NCBI GenBank assembly: GCA_947629865.1
Contig: CANRFJ010000002.1
Coordinates: 62,001 to 126,000 of the forward strand
Direction: 5' to 3'
Length of the DNA: 64,000 bases
Origin: an uncultured Lachnospiraceae bacterium
GTDB taxonomy: Bacteria > Bacillota > Clostridia > Lachnospirales > Lachnospiraceae
Shown: one piece after another, positions 54,128 to 60,522 of the stretch
Numbering within the stretch: position 1 is the first letter of the stretch
How the letters are laid out: every line of letters starts with the position of its first letter
Notes under the pieces: generated by a model
Seen by the model: only the letters and a program-made list of their open reading frames with translations
Told to the model about the DNA's origin: nothing
Database searches by the model: none
Made by a program: the position numbers and the translations under genes

Positions 54128-56086
54128 ATGCGGAAAATAGGTTTTGTGGTAGTAGTTATGTTTATGGCCATGTTGGCCGTGTCTGTGCCGGCGGAGGCAA
54201 AGAAGACATACTATGATAAGGATTATTCATATCAGGTAAAGGACAGGGAAGCTATCGTGACAGGATGTTACAAGTATCCCCAGGAAGGAAAATTGATTAT
54301 ACCTTCCAGTCTCGGTGGATTTCCGGTGACAGGGATTGCTTCAAGGACGTTTGCCGAGGACAAGTGGTCTGCTGTATACATACCGGATACGGTGGAGCAG
54401 ATTGACGGGTATGCTTTCATAGGTTGCAAAATGGTGTCTGTCCGGCTCCCTAAAAATTTGAAAAAAATAGAGATGTCGACTTTTGAGAGCTGTAGGAAAC
54501 TTACTTCTATCACTTTCAACAAAAAATTGACGAGTATTGGCGACTTAGCGTTTGCAGATTGTACTTCCTTGAAAAAGGTTACTTTGCCGTCTTCTCTGGA
54601 GGAGATTGATGATGAGGCGTTTGCATACTGCTATAAGCTGGCGACCGTGAAACTCAATAAAAAACTCCGCAAGATTGGTGAGTGCGCTTTTCGCAAATGT
54701 TACAAACTAAAGAAGATTACCCTTCCCTCCCATTTGAACGTTGTGGGGGAAAGAGCGTTTTTGTCGTGCAAGGATCTGAGTGCTGTTTATTTTAAAAATG
54801 CAGGGACAAAACTAAAGAGAGGTGTGTTCCGGCGCTGTACTTCATTGAAAAAGCTGGATTTGCCAAAGAAACTGAGGAGTATACCGGAGGAGACCTTTGT
54901 TGGCTGCAGCGCCCTCAGAGAAGTTGCGTTGCCGAAGACAATTTCCATTATTCGGAAAAGGGCTTTTGCGGATTGTACTTCCCTGAAAAAAATCGTGATG
55001 AATAAGAAGGCGTATGCCATTGGCGACCGCGCCTTTGAGGGTAGCGGCCTCAGGAAAATCAAGATGAACCGGCAAATGCAATTTATCGGGAATGGAGCGT
55101 TCCGTGACACGGATATACGGAGTATTACGCTGGGTTCCCGTGTGACCTACATAGGCAACCGGATTTTTTCCGATTGCAAAAAACTCCAACGGGTATATAT
55201 ACCGGCTAGCGTAAAGGGAATTAATCCGGGCGCCTTTAACAACTGTACGAGTCTCCGGGCGATCAATGTGGCGTCCGGCAATGCAAATTACTGCAGCGAG
55301 GCGGGGGTTCTCTACAATGCGTCAAAGACAAAACTGATTCAGTATCCGCTGCACAAGACAAACAGCTCCTTCCGCACACCGGGCAGTCTTCAGCGGATTC
55401 GCTCCCGTGCTTTTTCCGGAAATCTGTACCTAAAAAATGTGACGACGTCTGCGGATTCCATTGGCAGCCGTGCCTTTTATGAGATGAAAAATCTCCGCTC
55501 CGTCACACTCTTATCCGGCGTGAGGAGGATTGGAGAGTCGGCATTTGACAATGATTTCCGGCTGAACAAAATAACGGTGCCGGATTCGGTCACTCATATT
55601 GGGCCCCGCGCTTTTGCGTTCAGCAATGTGCGTACCCTGCACATTCCCTCCGCTCTGACTTCATTTGACAAGAGCGCTGTATACGACTGCACAAAACTGG
55701 CGTATTTTACAGGCGGAGGCGGCAGATACCGCGTGAAGGAAGGCGTCCTGTACAATGGAAATATGACAAAGCTGATCAAGTATCCGGCCAGAAAAGCGGG
55801 CAGTACATTTACCGCGCCGAATTCGGTGAGGAGTGTTTCAGCCTGGGCCTTTGAGTACTGCGCCAATCTGACTAAACTGTATTTTGGAAAGAATCTCGAT
55901 AATCTGGGGTATCGCGCTATATATAAGGCAAAAAAATTAAGGTCCCTTGTCCTTGACACCAAAAAACTGGGATATTGTACCTTGAGCGTGAACTCCTGCC
56001 ACAAACTGGCTGTGATTGTGGCGCCGAATAATTCTTTGATGAGGGAATTGGCGGATGAAGCCAACGTAACGTTGATTACGCTGTAG
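54128..56086 (+). CDS. Secreted BspA-like leucine-rich-repeat (LRR_5) protein
   Basis: A 652-residue exported protein. After a signal peptide (FVVVVMFMAMLAVSVPAEA) the whole chain consists of BspA/Treponema-type LRRs of about 23 residues (for example IGDLAFADCTSLKKVTLPSSLEEI), roughly twenty units interrupted by two short inserts around GGVLYN-like segments (EAGVLYNASKTKLIQYP; KEGVLYNGNMTKLIKYP). Such proteins bind fibronectin or other bacteria in oral and gut species. No anchor is visible. AGGAGGA precedes the ATG. It shares a transcript with the transporter upstream and ends at a terminator. Confidence 0.87.
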   Translation: MRKIGFVVVVMFMAMLAVSVPAEAKKTYYDKDYSYQVKDREAIVTGCYKYPQEGKLIIPSSLGGFPVTGIASRTFAEDKWSAVYIPDTVEQIDGYAFIGCKMVSVRLPKNLKKIEMSTFESCRKLTSITFNKKLTSIGDLAFADCTSLKKVTLPSSLEEIDDEAFAYCYKLATVKLNKKLRKIGECAFRKCYKLKKITLPSHLNVVGERAFLSCKDLSAVYFKNAGTKLKRGVFRRCTSLKKLDLPKKLRSIPEETFVGCSALREVALPKTISIIRKRAFADCTSLKKIVMNKKAYAIGDRAFEGSGLRKIKMNRQMQFIGNGAFRDTDIRSITLGSRVTYIGNRIFSDCKKLQRVYIPASVKGINPGAFNNCTSLRAINVASGNANYCSEAGVLYNASKTKLIQYPLHKTNSSFRTPGSLQRIRSRAFSGNLYLKNVTTSADSIGSRAFYEMKNLRSVTLLSGVRRIGESAFDNDFRLNKITVPDSVTHIGPRAFAFSNVRTLHIPSALTSFDKSAVYDCTKLAYFTGGGGRYRVKEGVLYNGNMTKLIKYPARKAGSTFTAPNSVRSVSAWAFEYCANLTKLYFGKNLDNLGYRAIYKAKKLRSLVLDTKKLGYCTLSVNSCHKLAVIVAPNNSLMRELADEANVTLITL

Positions 56087-56237: not shown

Positions 56238-56262
56238 ATCTAATGTTGACGCAAAAAAGTAT

Positions 56263-56334
56263 GGCTCCATGGTCAAGTGGTTAAGACACCGCCCTTTCAC
56301 GGCGGTAACAGGGGTTCAAATCCCCTTGGAGTCA
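56263..56334 (+). tRNA. tRNA-Glu (TTC)
   Basis: Full cloverleaf: acceptor GGCTCCA with TGGAGTC (one G-U), anticodon stem CCGCC/GGCGG around CTTTCAC (anticodon TTC), and T-loop GTTCAAATC. The 3' CCA is not encoded. First of a cluster of four. Confidence 0.95.
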
Positions 56335-56356
56335 TTGGCAGATTTTCTGCTGCTTG

Positions 56357-56430
56357 GGACCTTTAGCTCAGTTGGTTAGAGCATCCGGCTCATAACCGGA
56401 CGGTCCGGGGTTCGAGTCCCCGAGGGTCCA
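56357..56430 (+). tRNA. tRNA-Met (CAT)
   Basis: Acceptor GGACCTT with AGGGTCC, D-arm AGCTCAGTTGGTTAGAGC, anticodon stem CCGGC/ACCGG region with CTCATAA loop (anticodon CAT) and T-loop GTTCGAGTC. The paired G1-C72 end suggests an elongator rather than an initiator. A CAT anticodon modified to read Ile cannot be excluded by sequence. Confidence 0.9.
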
Positions 56431-56434
56431 TACT

Positions 56435-56508
56435 GGCCCAGTGGCTCAGTTGGTTAGAGCGCCGCCCTGTCACGGCGGAGGCCGTGGGTTCGAGTCCCAT
56501 CTGGGTCG
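56435..56508 (+). tRNA. tRNA-Asp (GTC)
   Basis: Acceptor GGCCCAG with CTGGGTC (one G-U), anticodon stem CCGCC/GGCGG around CTGTCAC (anticodon GTC), T-loop GTTCGAGTC and discriminator G, the Asp identity base. Four bases separate it from tRNA-Met. Confidence 0.95.
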
Positions 56509-56555
56509 TTGCGTATTCCGGCGAAGTTTTGACGGAATACCGGACAAATTTCTAA

Positions 56556-56641
56556 GCTGGTGTGGCGGAACTGGCAGACGCCCAGGACTTAAAATCCTGT
56601 GGGTGGTGACACCCGTACCGGTTCGATTCCGGTTACCAGCA
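56556..56641 (+). tRNA. tRNA-Leu (TAA)
   Basis: An 86-nt class II tRNA with a long variable arm (TGGGTGGTGACACCCG), acceptor GCTGGTG with TACCAGC, anticodon loop CTTAAAA (TAA) and T-loop GTTCGATTC. Its product is charged by LeuS encoded at 16.5 kb. Confidence 0.95.
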
Positions 56642-58015: not shown

Positions 58016-60007
58016 CTATTTTCCGCCGTTGCGGTACTGTATCGGCGTCATGTCATATTTTTTGCGGAAGACGCGGTTAAAGTGTTCCACGTTCGGATAG
58101 CCAACCGCAGAGGCGATGTTCTCCACGGTCATACTGCCGTTTTTCAGGAGCGTCCGGGCCTTTTTTAACCGGATATCTGTCACCAGATCCACGAAATTTT
58201 TTCCGGATTTTTCCCGAATATATTTGCTGATATAGGGCTCGCTCAGATGGAACTGCGCCGCCATGGATTCCAGGGTGACGGTCTGGTAATTGGCCTGAAT
58301 GTAATTTTTCATGGCAATCAGCCGCTCGTCCTTGCAGGATTCATTGTTCTGGATTTCCGGCAGTTTGTTGACGCAGACGCACAGGGCGTGTATGGAGGCC
58401 TTGATGATATCTTCGTCAATACCGGCGCCCCAGTAGACATTGCCCTGACAGGTAATGCTCACAAAGGCGATGGCCCGCGAGGAAGAACCCTGAGTCAGCG
58501 CGTGCTCCTCATAGGCGGATAACTGGTAACTGATGCCGAAGAACTGCTTGATGGTATTGCTCACGGCATCCAGGCGGCCGTTTCCGTTGGCGTCTACAAT
58601 CGTCTTTTTGTCGCCGCAGGCAATCGTGGTTTCTGCCATTATGCCGTCAATCTGCTTGAAGTGGCACTCGCTGATCTGGAAGTACGGCGTCGGCGTGATG
58701 TAGTGCTCCTCAAAGATTTCATATACCCACTGCGGGGACAATTCCCTGTGCTCCTCGTCGGAGACGTTCTTCATCATATAGCCGACTTCCTCACGCATGG
58801 CGTCCGGCAGGGAAATGCCAAAATTCTGTTTTAATATATAGTTGACGCCGCCCTTACCGGACTGGCTGTTGATCCGGATAACGTCGGAGTCATAGGTGCG
58901 TCCCACGTCTTTGGGATCCACCGGAAGGTAGGGCACGCTCCAGGTGTCCAGTTTTTTGTCTTCCCGCCACTGCATACCCTTGGCGATGGCGTCCTGGTGG
59001 GAACCGGAGAAGGCGGTAAACACCAAATCTCCCGCATAGGGCTGGCGGTCATAGACGTTCATTCTGGTAAAGGTCTCGTAGTTTTTCCGGATTCTCGGCA
59101 TATCGGAAAAGTCCAGCTTCGGATCCACGCCGTGGGAAAACATATTCATTGCCAGTGTGACAATGTCCACATTTCCGGTGCGCTCGCCGTTGCCAAACAG
59201 AGTTCCCTCAATGCGGTCGGCTCCGGCAAGTATGCCCAGCTCTGCATCACAGACGCCGCACCCGCGGTCGTTGTGGGGGTGAAGGGACAGAATGACGGCG
59301 TCTCTGTATTTCAGATGCTTGTGAACGTATTCCACCTGGGTGGCAAATACATGCGGCATGGCGTTTTCCACGGTAGTCGGTATGTTGATGATGGCCTTGT
59401 TGTCAGCGTCCGGCTTCCACACATCCAGAACGGCATTGCAGACCTCTACCGCATAGTCTACCTCCGTGCCCGGAAAACTCTCCGGACTGTACTCGAAGGA
59501 AAAACTGCCATCGGTCTCGTCGGCAAGTTCCTTTAATAAGATGGCTCCGTCAATGGCGATCTGCTTTATTTCCTCTTTGCCCTTTTTGAACACCTGCTCC
59601 CGCTGTGCCACGGAGGTGGAGTTGTATAAGTGGACGACGGCATGGGGCGCTCCCTTTACTGCCTCGAATGTCTTCTTGATGATGTGCTCCCTGGCCTGGG
59701 TGAGCACCTGCACGGTCACGTCGTCGGGAATCATGTCCCGCTCGATCAGGGCGCGCATAAATTCATACTCCGTCTCGGAGGCGGCGGGGAATCCCACCTC
59801 GATTTCCTTAAAACCGATTTCGACTAACATCTGGAAAAACTGAAGCTTTTCCTCCAGACTCATCGGCTCGATTAACGCCTGGTTCCCGTCCCGCAAATCC
59901 ACGGAGCACCAGATAGGCGGCGCTGTAATGGCGTCCTTTTTTACCCAGTCGTAGGTGCACTCCGGCGGCATAAAGTATGCCTTTTGATATTTCGTATAAT
60001 TTTCCAT
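58016..60007 (-). CDS. leuA: 2-Isopropylmalate synthase fused to a C-terminal AraC-type DNA-binding domain
   Basis: A 663-residue protein. The first ~555 residues are a complete long-form (type 2) LeuA, which condenses 2-oxoisovalerate with acetyl-CoA in leucine synthesis: [29 protein letters not shown], the metal-binding [34 protein letters not shown], and a LeuA dimer/regulatory domain ([19 protein letters not shown]). The last ~105 residues are an AraC/XylS DNA-binding domain with both helix-turn-helices ([21 protein letters not shown] and [22 protein letters not shown], ending [11 protein letters not shown]). The frame is continuous and the last LeuA strand runs straight into a short linker. 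ATG 60007 follows GGAGG; a longer frame to 60100 runs through the T-box terminator and is rejected. It may be an enzyme that also regulates transcription in response to leucine. Confidence 0.9.
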
Positions 60008-60019
60008 TTTGTTCCTCCA

Positions 60020-60408
60020 TTCCTGCTGCAATAAAAAATCTTCCGTTTCCACAACCATGCGGTTGTAGAGACGAAAGATGATATTCTCCCGCGGTACCAC
60101 TCTACTTCATGTCCGGTCTCCCGAACCATGCCCTTGCCGGCACTAACATGCCTCTCCCCTGTAACGGTGGGCTTCCGGCCTACTCTACTGTGCGGCGGCT
60201 CCGGAGGGAGAAAATCCACCCTGTTCCGGGCGCGGCGCCGGGTTCAAGTACGCAGCTCAGAGGCGAGTTCGCTGTAATCCTTTTACTGCCTTGCACCGGA
60301 CGGCAGCTCTCTGTAAAAAGCAGTACAGGTACTATTCCTCATCCTTGCCTTTGCTTATATCGTCGGTCATTGTCTGTGAAAACAGAATTTTTTGCCTTTT
60401 TTGTCTTC
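60020..60408 (-). promoter_or_regulatory. T-box riboswitch leader, leucine (CUC specifier)
   Basis: A leader of about 390 nt before leuA. On the minus strand it has GATGAGGAATAGTA and the AGAGAGCTG distal stem I features, GAACTCGCCTCTGAG with specifier CTC (complement at 60265-60267), the T-box sequence AGAGTGGTACCGCGG (60089-60103), and a terminator (60031-60080) whose stem is followed by TTTTTTATTGC. Uncharged tRNA-Leu would stabilise the antiterminator and allow leuA expression. Confidence 0.92.
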
Positions 60409-60414
60409 GCGTAC

Positions 60415-60442
60415 ATTATATCATAAAAATATTCAAATGCAA
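60415..60442 (-). promoter_or_regulatory. Promoter of the leuA T-box transcript
   Basis: Minus-strand TTGCAT and TATAAT with 16-base spacing, predicting a start near 60408. The -35 overlaps the palindrome at 60441-60462 by two bases. Confidence 0.6.
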
Positions 60443-60462
60443 CTGATTAAATTTAATCAGTT
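60441..60462. promoter_or_regulatory. Perfect 22-bp palindrome upstream of leuA, candidate operator
   Basis: AACTGATTAAATTTAATCAGTT is its own reverse complement. It abuts the -35 of leuA, where an activator or repressor could act. The AraC domain fused to LeuA is an attractive but unproven ligand; AraC proteins more often bind direct repeats. Confidence 0.55.
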
Positions 60463-60522
60463 TTATTGATATATTTTAATATTCCGGCGGAGCGGCTCAA
60501 ACGGCGAGCCCACTTTGGCAGG

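Follow-up and report, generated by a model that had tools for sequence, protein, structure and literature searches.

A leucine-biosynthetic enzyme fused to an AraC-type DNA-binding domain, predicted to regulate its own gene in Lachnospiraceae

The window analysed here, a stretch of 64,000 nucleotides from an uncultured Lachnospiraceae bacterium (contig CANRFJ010000002.1), carries on its reverse strand a gene (58016..60007, -) in which a leucine-synthesis enzyme, LeuA, and an AraC-type DNA-binding domain are joined in a single open frame of 663 amino acids. The start codon is an ATG at 60007 preceded by GGAGG, and the open frame itself extends upstream to 60100. Searches against Pfam identify, in the order typical of type-2 LeuA and all above the Pfam cut-offs, an HMGL-like catalytic TIM barrel (residues 32-307; 59087..59914, -), the post-catalytic domain IPMS_D2 (residues 327-393; 58829..59029, -) and the leucine-binding and dimerisation domain LeuA_dimer (residues 423-549; 58361..58741, -). 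A variable linker (residues 550-566; 58310..58360, -; mean conservation 0.565 in 48 fusions) leads into an AraC/XylS DNA-binding domain with two helix-turn-helix (HTH) motifs (58028..58264, -), which is delimited by Pfam and by conservation and which scores 72.8 bits against HTH_18 over residues 582-660 (cut-off 33.6) and 47.8 bits against HTH_AraC over residues 622-660 (cut-off 26.6). The upstream region holds three further features on the same strand: a leucine T-box leader RNA (60064..60354, -; Rfam RF00230, 113 bits against a gathering score of 93, E 6.3e-25), whose specifier reads CUC (Leu); a -10 element, TATAAT (60415..60420, -), made an extended -10 by the TGA before it; and, ending 23 bp before that element, a 36-bp operator-like site, TTAAAATATATCAATAAAACTGATTAAATTTAATCA (60444..60479, -), composed of the half-site TTAAANNNNATCA twice in direct orientation at a distance of 23 bp, with the proximal copy inside the palindrome TGATTAAATTTAATCA.

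The enzyme part appears complete. Residues 4-548 are assigned to 2-isopropylmalate synthase by NCBIfam NF002991 (796 bits; cut-off 455), and the motifs RDGNQAL and HPHND are invariant across 28 aligned fusions; the RDG and HxHND within them we take to be the catalytic residues of type-2 LeuA. The same 28 sequences are invariant at GNG 475-477, YEEH 499-502, GSSS 507-510 and A512 of LeuA_dimer, the putative leucine loop according to our own mapping from Mycobacterium tuberculosis LeuA. In that enzyme, a loop of the regulatory domain shuts over the leucine bound where the two subunits of the dimer meet (PMC11057210). The M. tuberculosis protein (PDB 1SR9/3FIG) resembles the enzyme part of the fusion (phmmer E 2.8e-151, residues 26-518), its 644-residue chain aligning to the LeuA part only and leaving the AraC domain unmatched; the nearest solved relatives of the C-terminus by sequence are response-regulator and AraC-family DNA-binding domains. 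The source genome (2.64 Mb, 98% complete) contains a single LeuA_dimer match, the one in the fusion. Thus Pfam and the single frame confirm what the first-pass annotation had read here, namely a complete type-2 LeuA with its leucine-sensing dimer domain running into a two-HTH AraC domain, and the enzyme and DNA-binding domains share one chain, as in the architecture of trigger enzymes.

By our count the fusion is present in 23 of 39 genomes of the genus, a figure that includes one copy (G018) cut by a contig end; 22 lie beyond the source, at 79-94% identity, and one fusion (G008) has an in-frame TGA within its catalytic part. Two genomes (G020, G025) have a LeuA of the same clade without the HTH, 12 have ordinary LeuA only, at about 50% identity, and two, both incomplete, show no LeuA. 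A search for LeuA with a C-terminal HTH across Lachnospiraceae, the check that the initial annotation had proposed, finds the fusion in at least 89 of 397 family genomes by our count, with matches running through residue 659 or beyond. In a sample of the order it occurs in 17 of 295 genomes, all 17 within Lachnospiraceae, and the sisters listed from other families stop near residue 550; in a sample of the phylum it occurs in 4 of 398, G977 being from a different class. Scanning named genomes with an alignment of the HTH as query yielded at least 492 HTH relatives, the best 80 of which include Roseburia faecis M72, Falcatimonas sp. MSJ-15 and Lachnospiraceae COE1, A4 and P6B14, as well as Ruminobacter amylophilus DSM 1361, two Ruminobacter MAGs and one Mailhella MAG. 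The family, order, phylum and named-genome scans together refute a restriction of the fusion to the source genome or genus. Of these best 80 loci, 75 passed an in-frame test; L218 and L234, both fused, failed by the search string only, L252 and L254 are truncated by contig ends, and L190 is split. All 48 family fusions held out from the site analysis below have frames open to residue 650.

Two genes, L190 (G099) and L266 (G116), encode LeuA and the HTH in separate frames, the latter of which is intact, and the frame shift in L266 lies close to eight consecutive A; the arrangement is compatible with sequencing error, with a recent split and with frameshifting. A viral origin of the HTH found no support, none of 10 candidate stretches in viral contigs encoding a relative.

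Aligning close relatives revealed the operator-like site as a conserved upstream block common to members with and without a T-box. A matrix built from 40 sites (consensus TTAAAAAAAATCAATAAAAATGATTAAATTTAATCA) matches itself most strongly, in direct orientation, at 23 bp, the distance between the two half-sites; the corresponding spacing in AraC is 21 bp. In the window the site scores 51.0, and the runner-up, which overlaps it, 9.9. With a threshold of -2.97 derived from 945 shuffles, a site exceeding all shuffles precedes 107 of 119 fusions, in forward orientation in 102 and in reverse in 5; as many as 40 of these had served to train the matrix. Such a site also precedes both split genes, L190 and L266, which were counted apart, and it precedes 0 of 32 HTH-less sister LeuA and 0 of 36 ordinary LeuA. 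Because the 119 loci were drawn from best-match lists, they lean towards the kin of the window. The 12 fusions without a site above the shuffles are L218, L198, L192, L102, L077, L104, L180, L096, L097, L088, L103 and L105, of which L088, L102 and L103 have recognisable diverged sites below the threshold. For the locus sets, the tree and the T-box counts, proteins were taken only from frames that contain RDGNQAL and pass a length cut, L080, L086, L115 and L269 being among those lost, and 16 rows (loci among L281-L303) that proved to be fusion genes truncated where the retrieved DNA stopped were removed from the HTH-less group.

The 48 held-out family fusions played no part in building the matrix or threshold; L323 had too little upstream DNA, leaving 47. 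Thirty of these score above -2.97, compared with 0 of 235 new shuffles, and 17 have no site above the threshold with this matrix, some of them, such as L345, L348 and L356, showing nothing recognisable. A TA...T hexamer lies 21-24 bp behind the best forward site in 34 of the 47 by our count. The site therefore holds in the wider family but diverges there, the distal half-site being kept and the proximal one drifting, for example to ATTTACCAC. The held-out test supports the link between site and HTH; the divergence limits it. Upstream of L073-L088 and L320-L367, the proximal half-sites have drifted by subgroup, to forms near GTGATTAAAATTGTCAC or ending in ATTTACCAC, a pattern in which co-evolution with their HTH is possible.

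Whole-genome scans allowing up to 3 mismatches place the site almost exclusively at this gene. In the genus, 22 of 39 genomes have it: it lies directly before the fusion gene in 21, and in G029 at a contig end of an assembly without LeuA. No site came from G020, G025 or the 12 genomes whose only LeuA is the ordinary one, and the fusion-bearing G017 and G024 gave no match within 3 mismatches either. The 397 family genomes yielded 24 matching places, spread over 20 genomes; in 19 of these the match lies at most 0.8 kb upstream of leuA, which is the fusion gene in 18 and the split gene in G099; a reversed-pattern control gave 0 matches in the genus and 1 in the family. The sole family match away from leuA is a palindrome with 3 mismatches (G239:C208:15656-15694), in a genome that has the fusion and whose own leuA upstream region scores -22.9 (L346). 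Within the genus genomes searched at this stringency, the operator is unique per genome; since the strict site stands at the gene in 18 of at least 89 family fusion genomes, this uniqueness covers the genus and close kin, and the strict form of the site. A wider regulon in the genus was considered and rejected, the source genome having no further site within 3 mismatches and its own leuC neighbourhood (L149) a best score of -30.2. Across 14 leuC neighbourhoods the top score was -2.0, just over the threshold, for a weak operator-like site in that of G055 (L153:7283-7318). None of seven leuC neighbourhoods has a T-box at the Rfam gathering score.

Outside the Lachnospiraceae, three genomes of Ruminobacter, a gammaproteobacterium (L255, L258, L260), carry the fusion together with a second LeuA of another kind, 518-520 amino acids long, which speaks for horizontal transfer; the assignment of these contigs to Ruminobacter rests on record annotation and on neighbours common to all three. 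The Ruminobacter fusions come with the operator-like site, so that gene plus promoter look to have been transferred as judged from sequence. The Mailhella copy has no operator match within 3 mismatches. L304, the fusion from G977, is full and has an operator-like site (22.5) and a T-box motif; it may stem from transfer or from assembly contamination.

The position of the site relative to the promoter is nearly constant. In 97 promoters the site is forward and the leader long enough for a measurement; here the -10 element starts 23 bp after the site in 81, 22 bp in 10 and 24 bp in 2, and was not found at that place in 4; the chance expectation for a -10 at one offset is about 3.6 of 95. In 93 aligned promoters, a G stands two bases before the -10 in 98% and a T three bases before it in 97%, and the -35 is poor, with a mean best match of 3.3/6 (2.6 in shuffled sequence). 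Most fusions, not all, thus have tandem half-sites of AraC/XylS type at a fixed distance from their promoter, and the spacing of 22-23 bp implies that the operator ends near -36. An operator next to the -35 is the geometry of class II activators, and this geometry, with its fixed spacing, extended -10 and poor -35, leads us to prefer activation over repression at about two to one, the sign being read from geometry. A comparable arrangement is given for AraC at PBAD (PMC11434276), where the proximal site, I2, covers positions -35 to -51, overlapping the -35 element.

Control by the leader RNA is unevenly distributed. By motif, a T-box precedes 23 of 32 HTH-less sisters compared with 28 of 118 fusions, the motif being absent in 90 fusions; it occurs in 7 of the 47 held-out fusions. 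Where the specifier can be placed in relatives it is CTC, CTG or CTA, all Leu codons. Rfam confirmation of motif-positive T-boxes covers the window only; on 20 motif-negative fusion loci Rfam found tRNAs only, in agreement with the motif. Leucine T-box leaders act at the RNA level through uncharged tRNA, in contrast to the protein-operator system of the fusion, which may have taken over in the 90 fusions that lack the motif. In fusions of the original set without a T-box motif but with a site and enough leader, an inverted half-site (at most 1 mismatch) follows the -10 in 30 of 55, compared with a mean of 2.4 and a maximum of 7 in shuffles; a forward half-site follows in 12 of 55. The inverted copies lie 42-43 (18), 47 (1), 52 (6) or 58-61 (5) bases after the operator, in steps of about one helical turn, and in two Ruminobacter genomes the second site itself fits the full operator pattern. 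The T-box members have a second half-site in 0 of 28. We infer that this element may serve repression or AraC-like looping that took over from the T-box.

Taken together, these data suggest that the DNA-binding domain binds a dedicated site before its own gene and that the enzyme helps to control its own production. We put at roughly 80% the probability that the fusion is both a working type-2 isopropylmalate synthase and a dedicated transcription regulator of its own gene, probably an activator. The likely target, its own promoter, goes beyond the first-pass annotation, whose proposal that one protein acts as leucine-pathway enzyme and regulator gains support from the conservation of the HTH described below and from its link to the promoter site. 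In the model we propose, the LeuA dimer would present two C-terminal AraC domains, each contacting one half-site TTAAANNNNATCA of the 36-bp operator. Ending at about -36, the place of the proximal half-site of AraC, the operator would let the protein help RNA polymerase at a promoter whose conserved extended -10 and poor -35 make activation the likelier sign. Lying between enzyme and HTH, the leucine-binding domain, with its conserved leucine loop, probably renders binding or activation leucine-dependent, and control of DNA binding through LeuA_dimer would be plausible; leucine would then act on one protein in two ways, on its activity and on its synthesis. Where a leucine T-box is present, it would add RNA control, and in many members without one the inverted half-site just after the start site would probably give repression or AraC-like looping.

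The best-surviving alternative is a variant of this model, and overlaps with it: the same protein would use the same site, with leucine-bound LeuA-HTH blocking polymerase at the -35 in the manner of classical end-product repressors. The logic of an end-product pathway favours repression by leucine, the site does overlap the -35 region, and the second half-site just after the start in 30 of the 55 members without a T-box motif would suit it as well. Yet the 22-23 bp spacing, the near-invariant extended -10 and the poor -35 are typical of activator-dependent promoters, and the second half-site is missing from the T-box members, and we consider autorepression a genuine contender but rather unlikely.

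That a separate regulator binds the site, the HTH having another target or none, strikes us as improbable. The operator is known here from sequence alone and these genomes encode many other AraC-domain proteins, but its two direct half-sites suit an AraC dimer, Ruminobacter has the site together with the fusion, and the site is absent from all 32 HTH-less sisters and 36 ordinary LeuA, nested HTH losses included. Such losses are visible in a LeuA tree of 163 rows, made by a quick method and taking in 8 of the 36 ordinary LeuA, in which the HTH is best read as gained once and later lost; many forks are weakly supported, and the base of the HTH clade has a support of 83. L025 and L026, paired at support 100 and nested inside the source genus, have lost the HTH, also lack the operator site and keep the T-box motif. 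A Fisher test of site against HTH on raw counts, which ignores kinship, gives 3.6e-23. Tree-aware pairing over supported branches leaves only 2 independent pairs, too few for significance; averaged over 200 random pairings, 1.9 of the 2 pairs had the site following the HTH, and no pairing showed the reverse.

A reading of the HTH as a passenger, or as a structural domain without part in regulation, might be hinted at by the sisters that live without it, but is very improbable. Comparisons inside the genus give dN/dS values of 0.076 (HTH), 0.040 (dimer domain), 0.026 (barrel) and 0.375 (linker), obtained with synonymous changes near saturation and only 9 to 49 usable pairs per region; median pairwise identity in 48 fusions is 0.69 for the HTH, 0.69 for the dimer domain and 0.84 for the barrel. 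As far as these comparisons show, the HTH is under purifying selection and conserved like the leucine-binding domain. Its canonical pattern is intact across genera, its frame is intact in both split genes, and it is linked to the promoter site, all against a passenger role. The first-pass annotation had named absence of the fusion from close relatives, combined with decayed HTH residues, as the outcome that would count against it; we see instead a widespread fusion with a conserved HTH. An assembly artefact, read-through in the source genome or chance can be set aside as a negligible prospect, because 22 more genomes of the genus share the architecture, as do members of many other genera, isolates included.

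Among known systems, the fusion shares with AraC/XylS regulators a two-HTH C-terminal domain that follows a ligand-binding dimer domain, but differs in that its sensor part is a complete biosynthetic enzyme and in that one target was found, its own gene. Trigger or moonlighting enzymes such as PutA and BirA differ from it in enzyme and in DNA-binding fold; in each of these, according to PMC6978683, one polypeptide is both an enzyme and a transcription regulator of its own pathway, a likeness that the fusion would extend, in a predicted role, to the leucine pathway. Judged by titles and abstract openings, the open-licence papers retrieved in our searches describe no LeuA fused to AraC or another HTH. 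If our reading is correct, the fusion would be a common leucine-control system of gut and rumen bacteria that combines, in a single polypeptide, allosteric control of the enzyme with control of transcription, may exemplify the loss of an RNA leader where a protein-operator system exists, and would offer a compact leucine sensor with a predicted target site. Tentatively, and at somewhat less than even odds, we suggest that feedback-inhibited LeuA became its own AraC, a single leucine signal setting both its catalysis and, by way of two half-sites that loop, the output of its own promoter, that it replaced the older T-box in many Lachnospiraceae, and that gene and operator moved as a module to rumen Proteobacteria.

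Two further features were seen in passing. A GA-cis RNA (Rfam RF02987, 67.8 bits) lies within one of the leuC neighbourhoods (L152:1545-1627). In the window, a cluster of four tRNA genes (56262-56641) adjoins a gene (54128-56086) for a 652-residue protein whose sequence resembles a run of leucine-rich repeats.
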